Shown here piece after piece: positions 37,334 through 56,587 of a stretch of 56,624 nucleotides of DNA. The translations under genes and the position numbers were made by a program. Position 1 is the first letter of the stretch. Every line of letters begins with the position of its first letter. The notes under the pieces are model-generated. The model saw nothing but the letters and a program-made list of their open reading frames with translations. It ran no database searches and was not told the DNA's origin. The stretch comes from Sphingomonas sp. (GTDB taxonomy: Bacteria > Pseudomonadota > Alphaproteobacteria > Sphingomonadales > Sphingomonadaceae): assembly GCA_013816595.1 (NCBI GenBank), contig JACDEB010000005.1, positions 1-56,624 of the forward strand, given 5' to 3'.

Positions 37334-38329
37334 TCAGACGCCATAATGCTCGCGGTACCAGTCCACCAGTCGCGGAATGCCCTTGTCGATTGTCGTCGTC
37401 GGCTTGAAGCCGTGATTGCGCTCGATCGCGCTGATGTCGGCAAAAGTGTTGGCGACATCGCCAATCTGCATCGGCTGCAGATCGAGGATCGCGGTCTTGC
37501 CGGTGGCCTGTTCGAGCAGGTGTACCACCCGGCTCAGCTCCTCGCTGCGACTGTTGCCGATGTTATAGAGGGCGTGGGGAGTGTGGCTTCCGCCGGCCTT
37601 TTCGGCGTCGTCGTCGGCCGGCGGGCCATCCAAGCAAGCGACGATGCCCGTCACGATATCGTCGATATAAGTGAAATCGCGCCGCATATTGCCGTGATTG
37701 TACAGCGGCAGCGGAGTGCCTTCAAACAAAGCCTTGGTAAAGATGAACATGGCCATGTCGGGCCGACCCCACGGACCGTAGACGGTGAAAAAGCGCAGCC
37801 CGGTCAGCGGCAGCCGGTAAAGGCTGGCATAGGATTCGCTGATCAATTCGTCCGACTTCTTCGTCGCGGCGTAGAGCGACAGCGGATGATCGACTCTATC
37901 CTCGACCCGAAAGGGGAGGCTGGTGTTGCCACCATAGACCGAGGAGGACGAGGCATAGACCATTGGCACTTCGAGCCGCCGAGCGACTTCAAGCATGTTG
38001 CAATGGCCGACCAGGTTAGAGCGGACATAGGCCTGCGGATTTTCAAGGCTGTAACGGACCCCGGCCTGGGCGCCCAAGTGGATGAGCCGTTCGATCTTGT
38101 GGCGCGTAATGAGTTCGGCCAGCGCGTCGGCTTCGGCGAAATCCATTTTCTCGAACGCAAAGGACTTGCCGAACTCGGCATCGATCCGGTCGAGCCGCGC
38201 CTGCTTCAGCGCGGGGTCGTAATAATCGTTGAGATTATCGATCCCAACGACCTCGTCGCCACGCGCCAGCAGTGCCCGGCTTGTCTCCGATCCAATGAAA
38301 CCCGCTGCGCCAGTGACCAAAATCGACAT
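37334..38329 (-). CDS. UDP-glucuronate 4-epimerase-like NAD-dependent epimerase
   Basis: A 331-residue SDR protein. MSILVTGAAGFIGSETSRAL is the NAD site and GIDNLNDYYDPALKQARL the subgroup's nucleotide-sugar loop. HLGAQAGVRYSLENPQAYV is diagnostic of UDP-GlcA 4-epimerases (LspL/CapI). SSSSVYGG and Y-A-A-T-K-K supply the Ser and Tyr-Lys pair, followed by RFFTVYGPWGRPDMA. It makes UDP-galacturonate for surface glycans. A decayed paralogue, in the same orientation, lies at 44415-44795. Confidence 0.9.
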   Translation of the reverse strand: MSILVTGAAGFIGSETSRALLARGDEVVGIDNLNDYYDPALKQARLDRIDAEFGKSFAFEKMDFAEADALAELITRHKIERLIHLGAQAGVRYSLENPQAYVRSNLVGHCNMLEVARRLEVPMVYASSSSVYGGNTSLPFRVEDRVDHPLSLYAATKKSDELISESYASLYRLPLTGLRFFTVYGPWGRPDMAMFIFTKALFEGTPLPLYNHGNMRRDFTYIDDIVTGIVACLDGPPADDDAEKAGGSHTPHALYNIGNSRSEELSRVVHLLEQATGKTAILDLQPMQIGDVANTFADISAIERNHGFKPTTTIDKGIPRLVDWYREHYGV

Positions 38330-38517
38330 GGCGTCACCCTTAAGGCGCGTGCCCGCCCGCCGCTAGGGCCTAATCACCGGCGATTGAACGCGGGTGTCGC
38401 GTATGCAGGTTAGCTATCGTCCGGCAATCCGCATTATTTTACTTAGGCGGCGCGGAGGAGACTTTCCGCATAATCGACCGCGCAGGGCGACCTGGTGGGA
38501 GCCAAACAAGCTGAGTT

Positions 38518-44414: not shown

Positions 44415-44795
44415 CGCATCGGCATTTTCGAGCTGCAGAACGACCTCGAGCACGTTGCAATGGCGGACGAGGTTGGATCGGGCATAGGCCTGCGGATTTT
44501 CAAGGCAGTAACGGACCCGGCCTGAGCGCCCAACTGGATGATCCGTTCGATCTTGTGGCGCACTGCAGGTTCGCCGAGCGCGCCGGGTTCGGCGAAGTCG
44601 AGCCTTTCGAATTGGAACGCCTTGCTGAATTCGCTGTCAATCCGCTCAAGCCGGTCGCGCTTGAGCTCGGGGTCCTAATAATCGTTGAGATTGTCGATGC
44701 CGATCCCTTCATCGCTGCGCTTTAGCAAGGCGCGGCTGTCTCCGATCCGGGGAATCCCGCCGCTCCAGTGAGCGTGATTGCCGTGGTCAGACGCT
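44415..44795 (-). pseudogene. decayed paralogue of the UDP-glucuronate 4-epimerase
   Basis: Read on the minus strand, the DNA gives AITLTGAAGFPGSETA, then after a frameshift GIGIDNLNDY, a TAG, DPELKRDRLERIDSEFSKAF, HKIERIIQLGAQAG and, after another shift, RYCLENPQAYARSNLVRHCN. Every block lines up with the intact epimerase at 37334-38329. Homology stops near 44430, so only the N-terminal 40 percent survives. At least two frameshifts and a stop make it non-functional. Confidence 0.85.
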
Positions 44796-44871
44796 TAGGG
44801 CGGAAGCCTGCGCGCCGAAATACCTACTGTTTGCCGATTGAGCGCGACCGCCGCTTCTGCTTGATGGTCGC

Positions 44872-47800
44872 GTGGAGCGACGCTGGAACTTTGCGATCGA
44901 TCGCGGCGGCACGTTTACCGACGTGATCGCAAGCGCCCCGGACGGCAGTGTTCGGGTCGAAAAGCTGCTTTCGGACAACCCGCGCCACTATGACGATGCG
45001 GCGCTGGAAGCGATTGCGCGCATCATCGGCGCCGAAGGCGGCTCGATCGGCGAGGTTCGAATGGGCACGACGGTCGCCACCAATGCATTGCTCGAACGCA
45101 AGGGCGCGCGCTGCGGACTTGCGATTACCAGTGGACTTGGCGACGCTTTGCGCATCGGGACCCAAGCCAGACCCGATATTTTCGCGCGCCAGATCGTCCT
45201 TCCCGCGATGCTCTACGATGCTGTCGCGGAGATCGACGAGCGGGTTGGCGCCGATGGCGGTATCATTCGCCCGCTCGACGAAGAACAAGCTCATGGCGCG
45301 CTCCTGTCTCTGCGCAATCAAGGCTTAGAAGCACTCGCCATCGTCCTGATGCACGGCTGGAAATATAGCGCGAACGAGCAACGCGTGGCTCAAATCGCCG
45401 CCGAGCTTGGCTTCACCCAAATCTCGGTCAGTCACGAGGTCGCGCCGCTGATCAAGCTCGTCGGGCGCGGCGATACGACAGTGGCCGACAGCTATTTATC
45501 GCCCGTCCTGCGCCGCTATGTTGAGCGCGTCGAAGCGGGATTGCCGGATGGAACGCCGCTCCATTTCATGCAGTCCAACGGCGGTCTTACCAGCGCCCAC
45601 GCCTTTCGCGGCAAGGATTCAATCCTCTCCGGACCCGCGGGGGGAGTGGTCGGAATGGTCGCTGCCGGTGCATCCCATGAAGCGCTCCGGCTGATCGGCT
45701 TCGACATGGGCGGGACATCGACCGATGTGTCGCATTTTGCCGGCCAATTCGAACTCGGCGACGAAAATGTCATCGCCGGAGTGCGGATCCGGGCACCGAT
45801 GATGAACATCCATACCATCGCTGCTGGCGGCGGCTCGGTGTGCCGGTTCGATGGCATGCGCTTTCGGGTCGGGCCGCAATCGGCGGGCGCGAACCCGGGT
45901 CCCGCTTGTTATCGCAATGGCGGGCCGCTGACCGTTACCGACTGCAACCTGTTTCTCGGCCGGATCGATCCCGATCGTTTCCCCGCGGTCTTCGGCCCGC
46001 AAGGCGATCAGCCGCTCGATCATGACGCCGCCGCCGCGCGCCTGGCCGAGGTCGCGGACAGCCTTAGCGGGAAGATGAGCCTGGCTTCGATCGCCGAGGG
46101 ATTTCTGGCCATTGCGGTCGACAATATGGCGGCCGCGATCCGCAAGATCAGCATCGCTCGCGGGCACGATGTTACGCTTTATACTCTCGCATGTTTTGGC
46201 GGGGCCGGGGGCCAGCATGCCTGCAACGTCGCCGACGCCTTGGGCATGGAGAATATCCTCATCCACTCGCTCGCGGGCCTGCTGTCGGCTTATGGTATCG
46301 GCATCGCCGACGTGAAGGCGATCCGCGATCGCAGCTGGCTCAAACCGCTCGATGAGGATTTCAGCGAGGCCCTGGCGGCGTTGGAGGCTCAAGCGCGGCT
46401 GGCGTTGCTCGACCAGGGGTTGGCAACCGAGCAGATCACGATCGAGCGCCGCGCCCGACTGCGCACCTCGGGATCGGATACGACCCTGGAGCTGGACGTG
46501 GGCGATACTGAGACGATGGGCGCCGCTTTCCTGGCGCTTCACCGCCAGCGTTTCGGCTATATCGAGGCCGACAGCGCGATCATCGTTGACGCTTTGGTGG
46601 TCGAAGCGATCGGCCGCACCGGCTCGCGCCTCGCCGCGACCACCGCTGGGCCGCCGGGAAAGCGCTGGACCGGTCCGGCGCTGATCAACGAGACCGGATC
46701 GACCGTAGTCGTCGAACCCGGCTGGACCGCGGTTCGCGCTGGTGACGGGTCGCTGATCCTGACCCGATCCGGGCCGGTCCAGCGAGCGGCGGCGATCGGG
46801 ACCGAGGCCGATCCCGTCCGGCTCGAGATTTTCAACAATCTGTTCATGGCCATCGCCGACGAAATGGGGGTCGCGCTGCAAGCGACGGCGACCTCGGTCA
46901 ATATCAAGGAGCGGCTCGATTTCTCCTGCGCGATGTTCGATTCCGCCGGCGCTCTGATCGCCAACGCGCCGCACATTCCGGTCCATTTGGGGTCGATGGG
47001 CGAAAGCATCCGAACCATCATCGAGGCCCGCGGCGGAATGGCCGACGGGCGCGGGATTCGCCGCGGCGATGCCTATGTCTTGAACGATCCCTATCGCGGC
47101 GGCACGCATTTGCCCGACATCACCGTCATCATGCCGGTGTTTTACGGCGCTGACAGCGACCAGCCCGACGCCTTTGTCGCGGCGCGCGGGCACCATTCGG
47201 ATGTCGGCGGGATCGCGCCCGGATCGATGCCGCCCGACAGCAAGACCATCGCCGATGAAGGCGTTCTGATCGACAATGTGCTGCTGGTCGACGAGGGGCG
47301 ATTCCGCGAAGCCGAAATGCGCGCGCTGCTCGGATCTGGCATGTGGCCGGCGCGCAGCCCCGACCGCAATATTTCCGATTTGAAGGCGCAGCTTGCAGCC
47401 TGCACGCGCGGCGCCGAAGCGCTTGCGGGGACTGCTCGCGATGTCGGGCCGGCTGTCGTCGCCGCTTATATGGATCACGTTCTTGCCAATGCCGAGGAAT
47501 CGGTCCGGCGGCTTCTCGGGCGCCTGGAGGATGGCGAATTCGCTTATGCGATGGACAATGGAGCGACGGTCAAGGTCGCGATCCGGGTCGACCGCAAGGC
47601 CCGCTCCGCGACGTTCGATTTCACCGGCACCAGCCCGCAGCTGAGCGACAATTTCAACGCCCCTTATTCGATCGCGCGCGCAGCGTCGCTGTACGTTGTT
47701 CGGACGCTCATCGACGAGGTCATCCCGATGAACGATGGCTGCCTTCGCCCGATCACCTTGGTCGTACCCGACGGATCGATGCTCAAACCGGCGTCTCCCG

Positions 47801-48360
47801 CCGCGGTCGTTGCCGGCAATGTCGAAACCAGCCAGGTCGTCACCGACTGCCTGTTTGCCGCGACCGGCGAGCTTGCCCCCGCGCAGGGGACGATGAACAA
47901 TTTCACCTTCGGCAATGCGCGCCACCAATATTATGAGACGATCTGCGGCGGATCGGGCGCCGGGCCGGACCATGACGGGACCGACGCGGTTCAGACCCAC
48001 ATGACCAACAGCCGGCTGACCGATCCTGAAATCCTCGAAACCCGCTTTCCGGTGCGGCTCAAGCGGTTCTGCATCCGCCGCGGATCAGGCGGGGAGGGCG
48101 CTCATCGCGGCGGCAATGGAGTGGTGCGCGCTTTGACCTTCCTCGAACCGATGCGGGCCAATATCCTGGCCAACCGGCGCGAGGTCGCGCCGCGCGGGAT
48201 CAAGGGTGGCGGCAATGCCTCGCCCGGACGCAATTGGGTCGAGCGCGCCGACGGGCGGATCGATCATTTTGGTGCTACCGCCGCAGTCGAGGTCAATGCC
48301 GGCGATTGTTTCGTGATCGAGACGCCCGGCGGCGGCGGCTTCGGGAGGAGAGGCGGATGA
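44872..48360 (+). CDS. ATP-dependent 5-oxoprolinase (HyuA/HyuB fused)
   Basis: A 1162-residue enzyme that opens 5-oxoproline (pyroglutamate) to L-glutamate at the cost of ATP. The HyuA half (1-640) has the nucleotide motifs [31 protein letters not shown] and [16 protein letters not shown]. The HyuB half (from about 648) has [43 protein letters not shown] and [10 protein letters not shown]. Order, length and the D-R-G-G-T-F-T-D opening match eukaryote-like OPLAH rather than N-methylhydantoinase. The start is GTG 44872 with no clear ribosome site. It is the first of a row of overlapping genes. Confidence 0.9.
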
Positions 48361-49031
48361 TCGATTATTGGCCGCTGGTCGGCATATTGCTGGTGGTCGC
48401 GGGGTTCGCCCTCCGGTTCAACCCGCTGCTGGTGGTCGCGGTCTCGGCGATCGCCACCGGCCTGCTCGGCGGGATGGATCTCGCCAAGGTTATCGCTTTG
48501 CTCGGCAAGGGCTTCAACGACAATCGCTACGTGACAATCATCTACATCGTGCTGCCGGTCATCGGGCTGCTCGAACGTTATGGCTTGCAGCAGCGGGCGC
48601 GGTCGCTGATCGGGCGAATGCGCGGTGCAAGCGCGGGTCGGATCCTCATTTTCTATCTCGGCTTTAGGCAGATTTTCGCGGCGCTTGGACTGACCTCCGT
48701 TGCCGGCCACCCGCAAACGGTTCGACCGCTGGTCGCGCCAATGGCCGAGGCGGCAGCGGAAAAGGTTCATGGAACGCTGAGCGATGCCGAGCGCGAGCGG
48801 GTTAAGGCGATGGCGGCTGCGACCGACAATATCGGTTTGTTCTTCGGCGAAGACATCTTTCTCGCCATCGCCTCGATACTGCTCATCCAGGGGTCGCTTG
48901 CCGGGTTCGGCATTCAGCTCACCCCGTTCCAGCTGTCGGTGTGGGCGATCCCGACTGCGATCGCGGCGTTCATCATCCATTCGGTTCGTCTGGCACTGTT
49001 TGAGCGCTCGCTCGCCAATGCGCGCGCATGA
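48357..49031 (+). CDS. DUF969 membrane protein (putative transporter subunit)
   Basis: A 224-residue membrane protein with about five to six hydrophobic segments (YWPLVGILLVVAGFALRF; LLVVAVSAIATGLLGG; TIIYIVLPVIGLLERYG; FLAIASILLIQGSLAGFG). It has the family's conserved FRQIFAALGLTSVAGHPQTV and D-N-I-G-L-F-F-G-E-D-I-F. DUF969 and DUF979 are always found as neighbours and look like two halves of one permease. In Gram-positives they sit beside pyrrolidone-carboxylate peptidase, which suggests pyroglutamate-type substrates. The ATG overlaps the oxoprolinase stop (ATGA). Confidence 0.88.
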   Translation: MIDYWPLVGILLVVAGFALRFNPLLVVAVSAIATGLLGGMDLAKVIALLGKGFNDNRYVTIIYIVLPVIGLLERYGLQQRARSLIGRMRGASAGRILIFYLGFRQIFAALGLTSVAGHPQTVRPLVAPMAEAAAEKVHGTLSDAERERVKAMAAATDNIGLFFGEDIFLAIASILLIQGSLAGFGIQLTPFQLSVWAIPTAIAAFIIHSVRLALFERSLANARA

Positions 49032-49981
49032 TCGACCTCCACTGGCTCTATGTCCTTGCCGGCGCGGTATTCGCGGCTTTCGCGATCTCCAGCGTCCGCG
49101 ACCGGACCAATCCCAAGCGGCTCGGCAATGCCGCCTTCTGGGGTTTGTTGGCGGCGAGCTTCTGGTTCGGCGATTTCTTCGGTGATCTGGGCAATGGTGT
49201 GCTGGTGCTGGCGCTGGTCGCAATCGCCGGCGCGCATTTGCTCGGCAAGGGGAAGGGGGCTTCAACCTCGCCCGAGGAACGGGAAGAATCGTCCCAGCGA
49301 TATGGCAACCGCCTGTTCCTGCCTGCGTTGATCATCCCGCTGACCGCTTTCGTCGGCACGCTGGCGTTCAATTACACTCCGCTCAAGGGCCTGGGATTGA
49401 TCGACCCCAAATCGGTGACGCTGGTGCTGCTCGGCCTTGGCGTGATCATCGCGCTGGCGGTTTGTTATGTGTGGCTTCGGCCCCCGGCAACGGCGCCGAT
49501 CGAGGAGGGGCGACGCCTTATGGAATCGATCGGATGGGCAGCGGTCCTTCCCCAGATGCTTGCCGCCTTGGGCGCGATCTTCGCCGTGGCCGGGGTCGGA
49601 ACGACCGTCGGGGCCATCGCCGGCGCGATCCTGCCCAGCGGCAACACCTTCCTCGCGGTCTTGCTCTATGCCGGCGGAATGGCGGTGTTCACGATGATCA
49701 TGGGCAATGCCTTTGCTGCGTTCCCGGTGATGATCGCGGCGATCGGAGTGCCAATCCTGATCCACCAGGACGGCGGCAATCCCGCGGTGATCGGCGCGGT
49801 CGGGATGCTGGCGGGTTTCTGCGGGACATTATGCACACCGATGGCGGCCAATTTCAACATCGTCCCGGCGGCTTTGCTCGAGCTCAGGAATCAATATGCG
49901 GTGATCCGGGCACAAGTGCCGACCGCGCTCCCGTTGTTCGCGGTCAACGTCCTGATCATCTATTTCGCGGCCTTCAGATGA
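49028..49981 (+). CDS. DUF979 membrane protein (putative transporter subunit)
   Basis: A 317-residue protein with about nine membrane segments. Conserved blocks include FWGLLAASFWFGDFFGD, FNYTPLKGLGLIDPKSVTLV, QMLAALGAIFAVAGVGTTVG, FTMIMGNAFAAFPVMIAAIG and a C-terminal G-F-C-G-T-L-C-T-P-M-A-A-N-F-N. The partner DUF969 gene overlaps it by 4 bases (ATGA), so the two are made together. Transport of 5-oxoproline or a pyroglutamyl peptide is inferred from context and not proven. A short fossil of another copy lies at 44346-44396. Confidence 0.88.
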   Translation: MIDLHWLYVLAGAVFAAFAISSVRDRTNPKRLGNAAFWGLLAASFWFGDFFGDLGNGVLVLALVAIAGAHLLGKGKGASTSPEEREESSQRYGNRLFLPALIIPLTAFVGTLAFNYTPLKGLGLIDPKSVTLVLLGLGVIIALAVCYVWLRPPATAPIEEGRRLMESIGWAAVLPQMLAALGAIFAVAGVGTTVGAIAGAILPSGNTFLAVLLYAGGMAVFTMIMGNAFAAFPVMIAAIGVPILIHQDGGNPAVIGAVGMLAGFCGTLCTPMAANFNIVPAALLELRNQYAVIRAQVPTALPLFAVNVLIIYFAAFR

Positions 49982-50964
49982 TCGAGCTTACACCCGAACT
50001 CGCCAGCCACATGGCCCGGATCGCGCTTGGCCATGTCTCCCGCGAATATCCGCACAAGCTCGACCATGTGCTCGACAGCGATGATGATGCGCGGGGGCCA
50101 AAGGCACTTCACCCAATTTTCTTTGGCAGCTTCGACTGGCACAGCTGCGTTCACGGCTGGTGGACGCTGTTGACGCTCAGGCGGCTGTTCCCGGACATGG
50201 CCGAGGCCGAAGCGATCGAGCGGCTCGCCGATGCCAGCTTCACGCCGGCCAAGGTCGTCGCCGAGCTCGCTTACCTTCAGCGCCCGTCGAGCCGCGGGTT
50301 CGAGCGGCCTTATGGCTGGGCTTGGCTGCTTTACCTCCACCTTGAGGCGTCGCGGCACGGGGACAGGAGTTGGGGCGATGAACTCGCAGCCCTGGCCGGG
50401 GCCTTCGCCGAGCGCTTCCGCAATTTCCTACCGCTGCTGACCTATCCTGTCCGCGCCGGCACGCATTTCAACAGCGCGTTTGCGCTGGTCCTGGCGCGCG
50501 AATGGGCGGAACGGTTCGATCCGCCATTGGGCGGGTTGATTGCCGAGCGGGTGTGCGACTGGTTTGGCGACGATCGTGATTGCCAAGCATGGGAGCCCAG
50601 CGGTGAGGATTTCCTCTCGCCGGCATTGGTCGAGGCTTTGGTCATCGCCGAATGCCGCGCGGCGCTGTTCGCTGGCTGGTTCAACGGGTTCCTGCCGCGG
50701 GTCGAGCAGCGCCAGCCCGCGACCTTGTTCACGCCAGCCACCGTCAGCGACCGAAGCGATGGCAAGATCGCTCACCTTGACGGGCTTAATCTCAGCCGCG
50801 CCTGGTGCTGGCGCAAGCTGGCGGCGTTGCTGCCCGAAGCGGAAGCGACATTGGCCCGGGACGTCGCCGAAACCCACCTTGCAGCGGCGCTGCCGCACCT
50901 GTCGGGCGATTATATGGGCGAGCATTGGCTGGCGAGTTTTGCGCTGCTGGCGCTGCTTGCCTGA
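49978..50964 (+). CDS. DUF2891 family protein
   Basis: A 328-residue soluble, helical protein. Recognisable blocks: HPIFFGSFDWHSCVHGWWTL, ERPYGWAWLLYLHLE, VRAGTHFNSAFALVLA, AWEPSGEDFLSPALVEA and LNLSRAWCWRKLA. The layout (an alpha/alpha toroid with several Trp and His) looks like glycan-active or epimerase-like folds, but no activity is established. In this operon it may act on the same peptide or amide substrate. The start ATG overlaps DUF979's stop. There is no signal peptide, so it works in the cytoplasm. Confidence 0.85.
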   Translation: MIELTPELASHMARIALGHVSREYPHKLDHVLDSDDDARGPKALHPIFFGSFDWHSCVHGWWTLLTLRRLFPDMAEAEAIERLADASFTPAKVVAELAYLQRPSSRGFERPYGWAWLLYLHLEASRHGDRSWGDELAALAGAFAERFRNFLPLLTYPVRAGTHFNSAFALVLAREWAERFDPPLGGLIAERVCDWFGDDRDCQAWEPSGEDFLSPALVEALVIAECRAALFAGWFNGFLPRVEQRQPATLFTPATVSDRSDGKIAHLDGLNLSRAWCWRKLAALLPEAEATLARDVAETHLAAALPHLSGDYMGEHWLASFALLALLA

Positions 50965-50998
50965 CCGCGACGCAACCGAAACGCCGCCGAAACGCTAT

Positions 50999-51793
50999 AT
51001 GGCGATGAGTATGAGCAAGGAAAAATGGTGGACCGTCCAGCAAGGACCGGGCCCAATCGTCGCAACCGCCATCCACGACGGCCACGATCTTCGATTCGAA
51101 GTCGCCGAGGCGATGAAATTGCCGGACCTCGATCGGCTGCGTGAGGAGGACCCGTTCACCGGCCAGGCGATCGTTGACATCCCCAACCATGTCATCGCCC
51201 ACCGCTCGCGCTTCGAATTCGATCTCAACCGCGGCGGGGACAGCGCGGTCTATTCGACCCCAGAGCAAGCGTGGGGACTGGATATTTGGCACCAGCCTCC
51301 CGAGCGCAATCTCATCGACCGCTCGCTTGAAATCCATTCGGCTTATTACCGGATGCTGGGTGCGATGCTCGACGGAATTGCCGCCGATCACGAACGCTTT
51401 GTGGTCATCGACGTCCACAGCTACAACCATCGGCGCGACGGCGCCGACGGAGCGCCGACCGATCCCGCCAAAGCTCCGGACATCAACATCGGGACCTTTT
51501 CGATGCCGCGCGATGAGTGGGCGTTCCTGATGAACCCGCTGATAGAGGCAATGCGCGGGTTCGACTTCAACGGTCGCCAGCTGGACGTGCGCGAGAATAT
51601 AGCTTTTCAGGGCAAGGGCGAACAAACCCGATTTATCCACGACCGCTACCCCGGCCAAGGCTGCGCCATCGCGCTCGAATTCAAGAAGTTTTTCATGGAC
51701 GAATGGAGCGGCCAGCCCGATCCGCTTGAGCTCGATGCGATGCGCCGGCTCATCACCTTTACCGCCGAAACCTGCGAGCGCTTGCTGAGGTGA
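50999..51793 (+). CDS. N-formylglutamate amidohydrolase family protein
   Basis: A 264-residue member of the N-formylglutamate deformylase (HutG/FGase) family, which cleaves amide bonds at glutamate N-acyl groups using zinc. Visible: IPNHVIAHRSRFEFDLNRGG (substrate/metal region), VIDVHSYNHRRDGADGAP (D-x-H-S-x-x-H) and ALEFKKFFMDEWSG with the catalytic Glu. It is not within a histidine-degradation (hut) cluster, so the natural substrate is probably another N-acyl-glutamate or peptide. In-frame ATGs at 50999, 51005 and 51011 are equally possible starts. It follows DUF2891 after 34 bases and overlaps the next gene (GTGA). Confidence 0.85.
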   Translation: MAMSMSKEKWWTVQQGPGPIVATAIHDGHDLRFEVAEAMKLPDLDRLREEDPFTGQAIVDIPNHVIAHRSRFEFDLNRGGDSAVYSTPEQAWGLDIWHQPPERNLIDRSLEIHSAYYRMLGAMLDGIAADHERFVVIDVHSYNHRRDGADGAPTDPAKAPDINIGTFSMPRDEWAFLMNPLIEAMRGFDFNGRQLDVRENIAFQGKGEQTRFIHDRYPGQGCAIALEFKKFFMDEWSGQPDPLELDAMRRLITFTAETCERLLR

Positions 51794-53649
51794 CCGGCGG
51801 AACGAATCTTCGCGCGGTCCAAAGCGGATTCGCGGCGCATTTCTCCGCGACCGGCGCGCTCCGCGAAGGCGTCGGCAGGAGCGGACGGGTCCACCTCGAC
51901 CGGTGGTTGCCGTTTATCTTTCTCCATCGCGGCGCCGATGACGAGGACAGCCTGGCGCGGCGGATCGCGATCAACAGCCCGTCTTATTGTCTGTGGAACG
52001 AAAGCGACGACGAGGCCTCGCGCGGCGCTCTGGCCGACGTGGTGGCGGCGCTTGCCGACCACGAAGGGCGGGTTCTGGTCGTTACGCTAATCGACGGCCC
52101 GATCCTCCCCCATGTTGCCGGTTCCGACAAATTGCCGCCGTTCGAAGCGGTCATCGGGGCCGGACGCCACGACGATGCCGAGCGTTCCGCAGCCGCGCTT
52201 GAGCATGCCTTGGCGAAGGTCGAAATCGACCTGCGTCATTGCAAGGTCGACCGCCGCGGGTTCGAATCACGTCTTCCCGCCGGTTTCGATGAAGCACTGG
52301 ACGCCGTGCAAGGCGTGGCGCGGCTATCGCTCGAGGTTCCGCCGATCCATCGCAGCGCGGGCGGGGCGGTGTTCCCCGAAATCCGCCACGAACTCGTCAT
52401 GCACATGGGCGATGCGCTGCTTCGCACGGCCTGCGCGTTTATCGATGACGGCAAACGCGAAGCCCCCAAACATTATCGATCGCTCGGCCGAAGCGCCTAT
52501 CTCGCCGCCGCGCTCAAGGCCGACAAACGGCTTGCTGCAATGTCGGCCAGCTTCGATTTCCTGCTGTCGATTTCCCCAATCGACACGGCCCGCGCATGCG
52601 ACGAATTCCTGGCCGGAAAGGCGCAGGAAGCGCCGCGCTTTCATTATCGGCCGCTCAGTGTCGATCCCGATGCCGCCAAAGGCGAGCTCTATGACATCGA
52701 CCTCGCACAGCTCGAAGATCCGCTGCTCGAAACCCTGTTGTCCGAAAAGCGCCGCGAAATCGATGCCCAGCTGACGATGCTAGCGACCCGCAACACCAAT
52801 GCCTTCCAGCCGGCTTCGATGGTGCTTTATGGCACGGTGGATGCGGCGCTGCTGGAAAGTGCCCGATCGATCCTCGCGGTTCCCGGCATCAATCCGCGAC
52901 GCGGAGAGGGGGTCGGGGCCGAACGGATAGCCAGGGCAGCGCGCGCAACGATCGACCAATACCAGGCGCAAGATAAGAGGTTCGCGGCCACGGTCGAGGT
53001 GCGCGACGATGTGTCGGGGCTGATGGTGTCGCGCGACCGGCTGATGATCGGGAGCGATTCGGCAATGCCCGCGAACCGGCTCGACGCGCTTCTTGCCCAC
53101 GAGGTCGGCGTCCATTTGCTGACCTATTTCAACGGCGCTTCACAGGGTCTCGGCATCTTTGCCTCGGGCCTGGCCGGCTATGAAGGGGTCCAGGAAGGTC
53201 TCGGAGTGTTCGCCGAATGGGCCGTCGGCGGGCTTACGCGGGCGCGTATGCGGTTGCTCGCGGCGCGGGTGGTCGCGGTTCATGCGATGCAGCAGGGTGC
53301 CGAATTCATCCAGTGCTACCGGATGCTCCACCACGACCATGGCTTCACCCCGCGCGGCGCCTTCGGGATTGCGGCGCGGGTGTTTCGTTCCGGCGGGCTG
53401 GCCAAGGACGCGATCTACCTCAAGGGCTTCAAGAGCGTCATCGATATGCTGGCCGAGGGACGAAGCCTGGCGCCGTTCTGGCTCGGCAAGATCGCAAAGC
53501 GGCATGTGTCGGCGATCGAGGAGTTGCTTCAGCGCGGCCTGGTCCATGAACCGATCTTCACGCCGCAGTTTCTTTCCGATGACGGGACCAAACAGCGCAT
53601 CGCGCGTTTGCGGACACGAAGCCATCTCAGCGAATTGCTGAACGATTAG
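51790..53649 (+). CDS. DUF1704 metallopeptidase-like protein (QEGLA motif)
   Basis: A 619-residue protein named in databases as flavohemoglobin-expression-modulating QEGLA motif protein. The DUF1704 half holds L-L-A-H-E-V-G-V-H-L-L: His437-Glu438 and His442 form an HExxxH zinc site. Q-E-G-L-G-V-F-A-E follows at 468-476, with Glu469 the likely third ligand. The animal tubulin carboxypeptidase MATCAP shares this domain and HExxxH layout, so a carboxypeptidase acting on a C-terminal residue is the best guess. The first 200 residues (WLPFIFLHRGADDEDSL ...) are a separate domain resembling the N-formylglutamate-type partner. GTG 51790 overlaps the preceding stop. Confidence 0.82.
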   Translation: MTGGTNLRAVQSGFAAHFSATGALREGVGRSGRVHLDRWLPFIFLHRGADDEDSLARRIAINSPSYCLWNESDDEASRGALADVVAALADHEGRVLVVTLIDGPILPHVAGSDKLPPFEAVIGAGRHDDAERSAAALEHALAKVEIDLRHCKVDRRGFESRLPAGFDEALDAVQGVARLSLEVPPIHRSAGGAVFPEIRHELVMHMGDALLRTACAFIDDGKREAPKHYRSLGRSAYLAAALKADKRLAAMSASFDFLLSISPIDTARACDEFLAGKAQEAPRFHYRPLSVDPDAAKGELYDIDLAQLEDPLLETLLSEKRREIDAQLTMLATRNTNAFQPASMVLYGTVDAALLESARSILAVPGINPRRGEGVGAERIARAARATIDQYQAQDKRFAATVEVRDDVSGLMVSRDRLMIGSDSAMPANRLDALLAHEVGVHLLTYFNGASQGLGIFASGLAGYEGVQEGLGVFAEWAVGGLTRARMRLLAARVVAVHAMQQGAEFIQCYRMLHHDHGFTPRGAFGIAARVFRSGGLAKDAIYLKGFKSVIDMLAEGRSLAPFWLGKIAKRHVSAIEELLQRGLVHEPIFTPQFLSDDGTKQRIARLRTRSHLSELLND

Positions 53650-53659
53650 GGGAAGTCAC

Positions 53660-54700
53660 TTGCGCATTGCGTTTTTCGTCAACGATCTCGAGCGGGAATT
53701 TGCCGGCTATGCGACCACCGTACTGGCCCACCAGGCGGCGGAGCGCGGGCACCAGGTCTATTATCTGACGCCCGAGGACTTCATCCTCCGCCCCGACGAC
53801 AGTTTGTGGGCTCACGCCCGAACCATGCCCAAGCGGAAATATAAGGACCGAGCGGACTTCTTCGCCACCCTGCGCTCGCCCAAAACCAAGGTCGAGCCGG
53901 TCGACATGGCCGAAGTCGACGTCCTCATGCTGCGCAACGACCCGTCGATCGATTTCGAACGCGGCTGGGCGATGGAGGCGGGGATCCTGTTCGGACGCGA
54001 GGCCGCCAAGCGCGGGACTATCGTTCTCAACGATCCCGATAGCCTGAGCCGGGCCACCAACAAGCTCTATTTCCAGAGCTTTCCGGTCGAGGCCCGGGCC
54101 AAGACGTTGATCAGCAAGAACGAAAGCGACCTCAAGGAATTCGCCAAGGAACATGGGTCGATCATCCTCAAACCGCTACAGGGTTCGGGCGGCACTGGGG
54201 TGTTCAAGGTCGATTCCAAAAGCGCGTCGAACCTCAACCAGATGATCGAGGCAATTGGCCGCGACGGCTACATCATCGCCCAGGCCTATGTCCCAGCTGC
54301 GAAAAAGGGCGACATCCGCTTTTTCCTCATGAACGGGGTACCGCTCCAGATTGACGGCAAATATTGCGCGCTTCGCCGGGTCGCTTCGGCCGATGATATC
54401 CGCTCCAACATCCACGCTGGAGGCACGGCCGAGGCGGTCGAGATCGGCGAGACGGAATTGCGCGTGGCGGAGATCATCCGACCTAAGTTGGTGGCGGATG
54501 GGATGTTCCTGGTCGGGATCGACATTGTCGGCGACAAGATCCTCGAAGTGAATGTATTCTCGCCCGGCAATCTCAAAAGCTGCTCGGACATGGCGGGTGT
54601 CGATTTTTCGGTGCCGATTATCGAATCGATCGAACGCAAGGTCGCGATCCGCAAGGATTATGGAGCTGTGTTCGATAACCGCCATTTGGCGGTTCTGTAG
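53660..54700 (+). CDS. glutathione synthase-like ATP-grasp ligase
   Basis: A 346-residue ATP-grasp enzyme. The N-terminal domain reads MRIAFFVNDLEREFAGYATT and DVLMLRNDPSIDFERGWAME. The ATP-grasp part has IILKPLQGSGGTGVFKV, QAYVPAAKKGDIRFFLMNG and VGIDIVGDKILEVNVFSPGN, with the metal/ATP-binding E-V-N. It resembles GshB but the specificity loop differs, so it may link an amino acid other than glycine. The TTG start is preceded by GGGGAAG. It is the last gene of the array; a short AACCGCCA/TGGCGGTT hairpin lies inside its final codons. Confidence 0.85.
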   Translation: MRIAFFVNDLEREFAGYATTVLAHQAAERGHQVYYLTPEDFILRPDDSLWAHARTMPKRKYKDRADFFATLRSPKTKVEPVDMAEVDVLMLRNDPSIDFERGWAMEAGILFGREAAKRGTIVLNDPDSLSRATNKLYFQSFPVEARAKTLISKNESDLKEFAKEHGSIILKPLQGSGGTGVFKVDSKSASNLNQMIEAIGRDGYIIAQAYVPAAKKGDIRFFLMNGVPLQIDGKYCALRRVASADDIRSNIHAGGTAEAVEIGETELRVAEIIRPKLVADGMFLVGIDIVGDKILEVNVFSPGNLKSCSDMAGVDFSVPIIESIERKVAIRKDYGAVFDNRHLAVL

Positions 54701-54956: not shown

Positions 54957-56105
54957 TTGAATCGTGGCCCTTGTCGAACAAGTGCATTGGTCGTCTCGAA
55001 ATTTGGAAGGAATTGCTTTTTGAATCAGCAATGGCCCGGCAATGATATCGGCTACTTTCCAATTTCGGCCGCTCTGGGCAAAGCGCCGACCGCTGGGGCT
55101 TCATCCCGGACATTTCCTGCTCGGCCAGCAGGCTACTCCGGTTCACTCTTGCCTATCTGGCAGACGCATGCACTCGCTGCACCCGAGATCACGGTTGCTG
55201 CGCTCTATGTTAATTATGCACAGGCCAAATCCGATCATCGATCGATCGGTGAGATCAGGCGAATTTTTGAGCGGCACATCTTGCCCGATCTCGGTTGGCG
55301 CAGTGTGCAGTCTATCGATCGAACCGATGTTACATTGTTGCTCGATAAAGTTGCGCGACTCGAACAGCGACGTACGCCGGTCATGGCGAGAGCGGTCGCA
55401 GCGCAACTTTCCGCATACTTTTCATGGGCAATCGCGCGATTGCCGAACCTCGGCGACAATCCTTGTCGACTTGCCAGCCGGCCTCCAAAGCCGCGATCGC
55501 GATCGAGGGTTTTAAGCGATGGGGAAGTCCAAGCACTTTGGCTTGTGCTCGACCAGGAAGCGCGTCCCTGGAGTGTCGCGATAAAGCTGATCCTGCTTAC
55601 TGGTCAGAGGCGCGGCGAGGTGTTCGACGCTAGTTGGAACGAATTCGACCTTGAACGCTCGATTTGGACGATACCGGCGGAGCGCTCAAAAAACGGTCGC
55701 GAGCACGAAGTGCCGCTTTCCGCAGCTGCAGTCGACTTGATCCGAGGTCTGGGGCCGGCCTCTGCGGGAAAATTATTTCCTTCCCGAACAAACCCTCAGC
55801 GCAGCGCGTCTGGGTTCAGTAAAGCGATGGCGCGGATCACCCGCGCCGTTGCCGCCGTCACCGGGCGCCCGGCTCATTTCACTCTCCAGGACCTGAGACG
55901 AACAGTCGCGACCCGTTTGCAAGCTTTGGGGGTGCGGTTGGAAGTGACCGAGGCGGTGCTCAACCACATCTCCGGCTCGCGCGGCGGAATTGTCGGCGTT
56001 TACCAGCTTTACCAATTCGAGGCTGAAAAGCGCGCCGCGCTCGACCGATGGGCAGCGGAACTCGAGAAAATCGTACAGATCGACGCAATTGATCAGCAAT
56101 CATAG
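54957..56105 (+). CDS. tyrosine-type integrase, N-terminally short
   Basis: A 382-residue frame. A core-binding domain (YVNYAQAKSDHRSIGEIRRI, FERHILPDLG) is followed by a catalytic domain with Arg-I in LLTGQRRGEVFDAS, LEVTEAVLNHISG (third box) and the nucleophile region GVYQLYQFEAEKRAALDRWA. The box-II motif is F-T-L-Q-D-L-R-R-T: the usual His is Gln311. P4-type integrases normally begin with a DNA-binding DUF4102 domain; the first 70 residues here do not match it. The gene may be decayed at its 5' end. It faces tRNA-Lys 400 bases downstream, the typical target. Confidence 0.7.
   Translation: MNRGPCRTSALVVSKFGRNCFLNQQWPGNDIGYFPISAALGKAPTAGASSRTFPARPAGYSGSLLPIWQTHALAAPEITVAALYVNYAQAKSDHRSIGEIRRIFERHILPDLGWRSVQSIDRTDVTLLLDKVARLEQRRTPVMARAVAAQLSAYFSWAIARLPNLGDNPCRLASRPPKPRSRSRVLSDGEVQALWLVLDQEARPWSVAIKLILLTGQRRGEVFDASWNEFDLERSIWTIPAERSKNGREHEVPLSAAAVDLIRGLGPASAGKLFPSRTNPQRSASGFSKAMARITRAVAAVTGRPAHFTLQDLRRTVATRLQALGVRLEVTEAVLNHISGSRGGIVGVYQLYQFEAEKRAALDRWAAELEKIVQIDAIDQQS

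Positions 56106-56511: not shown

Positions 56512-56587
<76 letters not shown>

Follow-up and report, generated by a model that had tools for sequence, protein, structure and literature searches.

Genes of the DUF969, DUF979 and DUF2891 families stand consecutively in the cj0552-4 locus of Campylobacter jejuni, and a report on that locus suggests a link to 5-oxoproline: in a preliminary growth experiment, the mutant lost the use of this compound as a nitrogen source (PMC12795558). A complex of DUF979 with DUF969 has been modelled for Clostridioides, and that study puts DUF979 in the ion transporter superfamily (PMC11467057). Mammalian relatives of a further family, MATCAP, are described in a 2023 paper as metallocarboxypeptidases that trim tubulin tails (PMC10499314). 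All four families are found in one gene array of a Sphingomonas sp., within a stretch of 56,624 nucleotides (contig JACDEB010000005.1 of assembly GCA_013816595.1, a draft of 110 contigs that is 83.1% complete) that we call the window. The array also encodes a presumed oxoprolinase, an N-formylglutamate amidohydrolase-like protein (NFGA) and an ATP-grasp ligase akin to glutathione synthetase (GshB), and it had been predicted from the window alone to form a single seven-gene pathway.

Comparison across genomes points elsewhere. The joining of the first four genes (module A) to the last three (module B) is not conserved in the samples examined, and the array probably consists of two separate modules set end to end in this lineage, the first a 5-oxoproline operon and the second a make-and-trim cassette. 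Of the two modules, the second is the more useful finding. As far as we have seen, it is a conserved, self-contained cassette of known families that is apparently uncharacterised; its three-gene arrangement is fixed in many alphaproteobacteria and some gammaproteobacteria, and the records examined annotate its genes as glutathione synthetase and flavohemoglobin-modulating protein.

Array layout and the joining of the modules

Seven open reading frames on the plus strand span positions 44872 to 54700, and their coordinates, their four 4-base overlaps and their two short gaps were all measured as originally noted. The overlaps (spacing -4) tie the OPLAH-like oxoprolinase to DUF969, DUF969 to DUF979, DUF979 to DUF2891, and NFGA to MATCAP. 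Positive spacings separate MATCAP from the ligase (+10) and DUF2891 from NFGA (+34, the largest in the array). Each of the seven proteins exceeds the curated Pfam cut-offs, and the reading frames are open across the family models.

44872..48360, plus strand: module A gene 1, an OPLAH-like fusion of hydantoinase A and B, presumed to be an ATP-dependent 5-oxoprolinase, 1162 aa (PF05378, PF01968, PF02538)
48357..49031, plus strand: module A gene 2, DUF969 membrane protein (PF06149, 300 bits, cut-off 32)
49028..49981, plus strand: module A gene 3, DUF979 membrane protein, predicted to pair with DUF969 (PF06166, 399 bits)
49978..50964, plus strand: module A gene 4, DUF2891 protein (PF11199, 406 bits)
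50965..50998, no strand: 34-base gap at the boundary of modules A and B, where the order conserved in relatives stops
50999..51793, plus strand: module B gene 1, NFGA, an FGase-family M14-like hydrolase that is not HutG (PF05013, 75.5 bits, cut-off 28.9)
51790..53649, plus strand: module B gene 2, MATCAP/DUF1704 (QEGLA) metallopeptidase bearing an additional N-terminal domain whose fold is hydrolase-like (PF08014, 288 bits, residues 272-602)
53660..54700, plus strand: module B gene 3, GshB-type ATP-grasp ligase of the PRK12458 subfamily, 346 aa (GSH-S_ATP 179 bits, GSH-S_N 54 bits)

In the order samples, DUF2891 was matched in 113 of 296 genomes and MATCAP in 20 of 292. Five genomes figure in both lists (G000, which is the window's own, G103, G134, G140 and G166), and the two families stand together in G000 only; in G140 about 28 kb separates DUF2891 from MATCAP and their strands differ, and in the other three genomes they are on different contigs. 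A sample of 71 genomes from the genus was searched with DUF2891 and the ligase as the only queries, its counts being made by eye from listings. DUF2891 of the window was matched in 43 of these genomes (over just 20 residues in G697, which was left out of the joint count, and 51 in G712), the ligase at E < 1e-90 in 23, and both in 11 (G000, G103, G166, G675, G684, G688, G689, G691, G693, G696 and, as a fragment, G712). Adjacency was again confined to G000 (1 of 11), the other ten carrying the modules on different contigs (G103, G166, G691, G696 and G712, some of these assemblies being fragmented) or more than 600 kb apart.

The flanks of module B tell the same story. A scan of a contig collection with the MATCAP core returned at least 491 relatives, of which the best 80 were analysed (the best-80 set, which therefore favours close kin). 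Sequence extends at least 8 kb to both sides of the cassette in 62 of these loci and at least 5 kb upstream in 75, with L054 partly masked, and in the available flanks DUF969, DUF979 and DUF2891 were found at 0 of 80; one locus (L102) carries, about 3.5 kb downstream, a distant oxoprolinase relative at 30% identity. Conversely, none of eight congeneric DUF2891 loci (L164-L171) has a module B match within 16 kb around that gene. Conservation of the order in other genomes had been set as the test of the original prediction, and within these samples the seven-gene order occurs in the window's genome only. Each half is nonetheless more than a chance grouping, because each keeps its own gene order in many relatives.

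Module A and 5-oxoproline

Judged by its families and their order, module A looks like a known kind of 5-oxoproline uptake-and-use operon. The first gene carries the three domains of a fused hydantoinase A/B in one protein, all as strong matches (630 bits for Hydantoinase_B and 335 for Hydantoinase_A in Pfam), and its structural relatives in the PDB include 7hk5 (E 6.8e-122) and 6yra. DUF969, DUF979 and DUF2891 are without any NCBIfam match. Among solved structures, DUF2891 has a relative in 8ieu (E 8.2e-92), and a literature search on that entry found no paper about the structure; the family was first counted among the peptide-type enzymes, an activity not known for it.

The order oxoprolinase-DUF969-DUF979-DUF2891, with the oxoprolinase always first, recurs at all eight of L164-L171, which are all the other genus members with DUF2891 in the order sample (the later genus sample holds 42 other matches). 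Among the 30 order-sample loci L002-L031 (at most 4 kb each), DUF969 and DUF979 stand beside DUF2891 in 19, and a match to them is absent from the stretch in 11. Ten of these 11 (L002-L010 and L012) belong to a divergent DUF2891 group, 38-45% identical to the window's protein; the remaining one, L025, has a DUF2891 at 61% identity.

The window's operon differs from cj0552-4 in including a fused OPLAH-type oxoprolinase. A search for PxpA (LamB/YcsF, PF03746), as a sign of the PxpABC type of 5-oxoprolinase, gave 0 matches in the assembly at its 83.1% completeness, and the OPLAH-type enzyme is for that reason probably the route from 5-oxoproline to glutamate in this genome. The DUF969/DUF979 transporter would take up 5-oxoproline, the oxoprolinase would use ATP to open it to glutamate, a substrate assigned here by likeness, and DUF2891 may be an accessory of the module. 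Uptake and ring opening had been predicted for the array as a whole; they fit the first four genes, and their extension to all seven is not supported. Module A can be taken as a further transporter-plus-oxoprolinase operon, consistent with the assignment of DUF969/DUF979.

Module B, a ligase with two hydrolases

The order NFGA-MATCAP-ligase on one strand was found in 79 of the best-80 set, from genera that include Sphingomonas, Sphingomicrobium, Lysobacter, Luteimonas, Brevundimonas, Mesorhizobium, Devosia, Agrobacterium, Ensifer and Sinorhizobium; at the exception, L057, the contig ends just past MATCAP. All 20 MATCAP loci of the order sample, the window included, have both partners (the NFGA of L036 is partly readable because of masking), and 19 have them in the same order. 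The twentieth, L033 of the Sphingomonadales, fuses NFGA and MATCAP in one 703-residue frame with the ligase directly upstream, and the same layout, the ligase followed by NFGA-MATCAP in one open frame, is seen on a plasmid record of Photobacterium sp. DA100 (L188). Pairwise distances among the three proteins correlate with r = 0.83-0.93, values in which species descent is not controlled. Crude clustering of open reading frames of at least 90 codons revealed no further gene family at a fixed place beside the cassette.

A small substrate gene next to module B was also considered and rejected, since no small open reading frame within 1.2 kb was common to three or more groups among the 80 loci. 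On pSymB of Sinorhizobium meliloti the cassette is flanked by a hypothetical gene and a galactofuranose transporter, and a 213-base hypothetical gene lies just upstream of it (L185:4829-5041). In all, 117 plasmid records match the MATCAP family, 79 of them from Sinorhizobium. Of 25 plasmid records listed, five name the protein "flavohemoglobin expression-modulating QEGLA motif protein", and the other 20 show no annotation there.

The ligase shares with E. coli GshB (1gsa) its family, its ATP-grasp domain and its catalytic and presumed substrate-binding residues, and differs in being an extra paralogue of the PRK12458 subfamily coupled to two hydrolases. It scores 431.5 bits with NF009110, the NCBIfam model of this "glutathione synthetase" subfamily (cut-off 408), and stays under both GshB equivalog cut-offs (209 against 299 for TIGR01380, 228 against 272 for PRK05246); its family profile finds 1gsa at E 7.2e-51. 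In motif alignments of 80 sequences, 79 loci and the window, Arg220, Arg240, Arg248 and Asn250 are kept in all 80, and Asp288, Glu296 and Asn298 in 79, with one gap. The first four align, as counted from the alignment, with Arg210, Arg225, Arg233 and Asn235 of E. coli GshB, which we take to be substrate-site residues. An ordinary glutathione synthetase role is disfavoured because a second GshB-like match, 31-40% identical to the ligase, is present in all 23 ligase-bearing genus genomes (counted by eye; in G693 it spans residues 118-327 only). The extra "gshB" of such bacteria may not be a glutathione gene. The original prediction noted that gshA was missing, which is true of the window and untrue of the genome: contig C87 carries a gshA of the GCS2 type, and contig C16 another gene with GSH-S_N (137 bits).

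NFGA belongs to the same Pfam family, FGase, as HutG, and its predicted structure (pLDDT 89.9, pTM 0.89) is nearest to the NFGA structures 2q7s and 2odf. A HutG function is rejected on a score of 19.9 bits with TIGR02017, far under the cut-off of 278.75; there are no hut genes among the seven of the array, and in the loci read NFGA adjoins MATCAP instead. His140 and Glu227 are kept in 80 of 80 sequences and His26 in 79. Weaker structural matches of the model are a phage poly-gamma-glutamate hydrolase and CCP5, a tubulin deglutamylase.

The MATCAP protein has in common with the tubulin carboxypeptidases MATCAP/TMCP (KIAA0895L, 7z5g) its family and the HExxxH and (Q/E)EG motifs, His437, Glu438, His442 and the third ligand Glu469 in (E/Q)EG being kept in 80 of 80; a search with its profile hits structures of human KIAA0895L at E 1.1e-15. 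With the QEGLA hypothetical equivalog TIGR02421 it scores 328.8 bits, just under the cut-off of 338.65. Unlike those enzymes it is bacterial and, as in most members, has an N-terminal domain of hydrolase-like fold. The frame runs to at least 600 codons in 78 of the 80 loci (the start call of L090 is doubtful), and some sphingomonad members, of about 400 residues, are without the domain. In the window's protein, the first ~250 residues, outside the PF08014 match, align weakly with NFGA in a single profile comparison (probability 85, E 6.1e-6), in which an isoleucine faces His140 of NFGA, a presumed metal ligand. The predicted structure of the domain (pLDDT 85.9, pTM 0.82) has a phosphorylase/hydrolase fold, and a fold search placed a uridine phosphorylase at the top, an M14 carboxypeptidase at rank 5 and NFGA 2q7s at rank 23, all with TM-scores of about 0.4 or lower. 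It is plausible, though not proven, that the domain is a decayed (dead) copy of NFGA.

From the kept catalytic motifs, the KIAA0895L match and the likenesses of the NFGA model, we infer that a peptide or peptide tail passes through a make-and-trim cycle, and all of the chemistry that follows rests on this deduction. The GshB-type enzyme would most likely couple an amino acid to a carboxylate that it has activated, either on a small and probably gamma-glutamyl-like peptide or on a peptide tail. MATCAP would remove C-terminal residues, and the NFGA-type hydrolase would cut a different acyl or peptide bond; the three enzymes could in this way build the product, trim it and turn it over. The likeness of the ligase's site to that of GshB speaks for a small substrate of gamma-glutamyl type rather than a protein, without settling the choice.

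Tubulin tails are lengthened by ATP-grasp (TTL-type) ligases, and the three superfamilies of module B are those that edit these tails in eukaryotes. A tentative extension, which we hold possible but doubtful, is that module B serves bacteria in editing C-terminal tails and, within one operon, is the counterpart of the tubulin-code superfamilies, in that the ligase adds residues to a bacterial peptide or protein tail and the M14-like and MATCAP hydrolases remove them, perhaps in an osmotic response. In RNA-seq of Photobacterium damselae at low salt (1% NaCl), a "GshB" gene (RS17020) that the authors regard as glutathione synthetase was 38.4-fold up and the next tag, QEGLA (RS17025), 27.5-fold up (PMC10308900). 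We take this pair to have the layout of L188.

A description of the cassette was not found in a literature search that covered titles, abstract openings and partly a subset of the hits, and one may already be on record; a search with guessed locus tags for the Sinorhizobium cassette retrieved a mention of a neighbouring tag only. Gene neighbourhoods of this kind are reportedly treated in a 2009 survey of amidoligases. With pSymB of Sinorhizobium as an example, the cassette offers a genetically accessible system for finding the substrate of a bacterial MATCAP.

Competing explanations and surroundings

Several observations weigh against the reading of the array as a 5-oxoproline operon followed by a make-and-trim cassette, the leaning of the best-80 set towards close kin among them. 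For module A, the NCBIfam search of the first gene matched no 5-oxoprolinase model, and its matches, caprolactamase and acetophenone carboxylase subunits, are all far under cut-off; the substrate assignment accordingly rests on family and context. L183, of the Sphingomonadales, has DUF969-DUF979-DUF2891 with no oxoprolinase in 16 kb of sequence. For module B, MATCAP also occurs without its partners. In a phylum sample of 398 genomes, 47 of them MATCAP-positive, the 30 best-scoring loci (L134-L163, ~4 kb each) include none with an NFGA match and one with a GshB-like match, on the opposite strand. On a Vibrio plasmid, NFGA and MATCAP are fused and the ligase is absent from the 10 kb read, and a Pseudoalteromonas plasmid has a MATCAP with neither partner annotated in 9 kb of sequence. 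The ligase is thus not obligatory, and the cassette is one arrangement of the MATCAP family, not its rule. At the junction itself there is no promoter-like site, and the two modules may be co-transcribed in this genome; the promoter and terminator scan, which gave fewer hits than shuffled sequence, was uninformative.

The joining of the modules might be recent and yet functionally sensible. 5-Oxoproline arises from gamma-glutamyl peptides, and if module B made and broke a glutathione-like gamma-glutamyl peptide, breakdown would yield 5-oxoproline and module A would turn this back into glutamate. The genome does have gshA and a second gshB, and the ligase belongs to a GshB subfamily and keeps the residues that we take to hold the substrate in E. 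coli. Such a gamma-glutamyl cycle is nevertheless unlikely: no gamma-glutamylcyclotransferase or transpeptidase is found among the seven genes, the transporter of module A points to external 5-oxoproline, and in the other ten genus genomes that carry the two modules, these are on different contigs or more than 600 kb apart.

An assembly chimera of two separate loci would account for an adjacency seen in one fragmented draft only. It is very unlikely, in that neither gene at the junction is truncated, the break would need to fall inside the 34-base gap, and GC is steady at 0.62-0.65 across it.

Least credible is the single seven-gene pathway, in which uptake of a pyroglutamyl or N-acyl-glutamyl compound would lead to its opening or trimming and then to its relinking, for in spite of the tight same-strand spacing, the open frames and the junction without a promoter-like site, each module is found alone elsewhere and the two meet at 1 of 11 genus genomes, 1 of 5 in the order lists and none of the best-80 flanks.

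Directly upstream of the oxoprolinase, positions 44427-44817 are a decayed direct-repeat copy of 37970-38362 (70-93% identical in pieces), a segment within and just past a sugar epimerase gene (37334-38329). Just downstream of the array, a tyrosine-type phage integrase gene (54957-56105) lies next to a tRNA-Lys (CTT) gene (56512-56587). An integrase-borne island with tRNA-derived ends is a candidate reading, but no copy of the 3' end of this tRNA gene, of at least 14 bases, occurs elsewhere in the window. Far upstream, from about position 1 to 32400, the window resembles an exopolysaccharide locus, its translations suggesting glycosyltransferases, chain-length and export proteins, and sugar epimerases.

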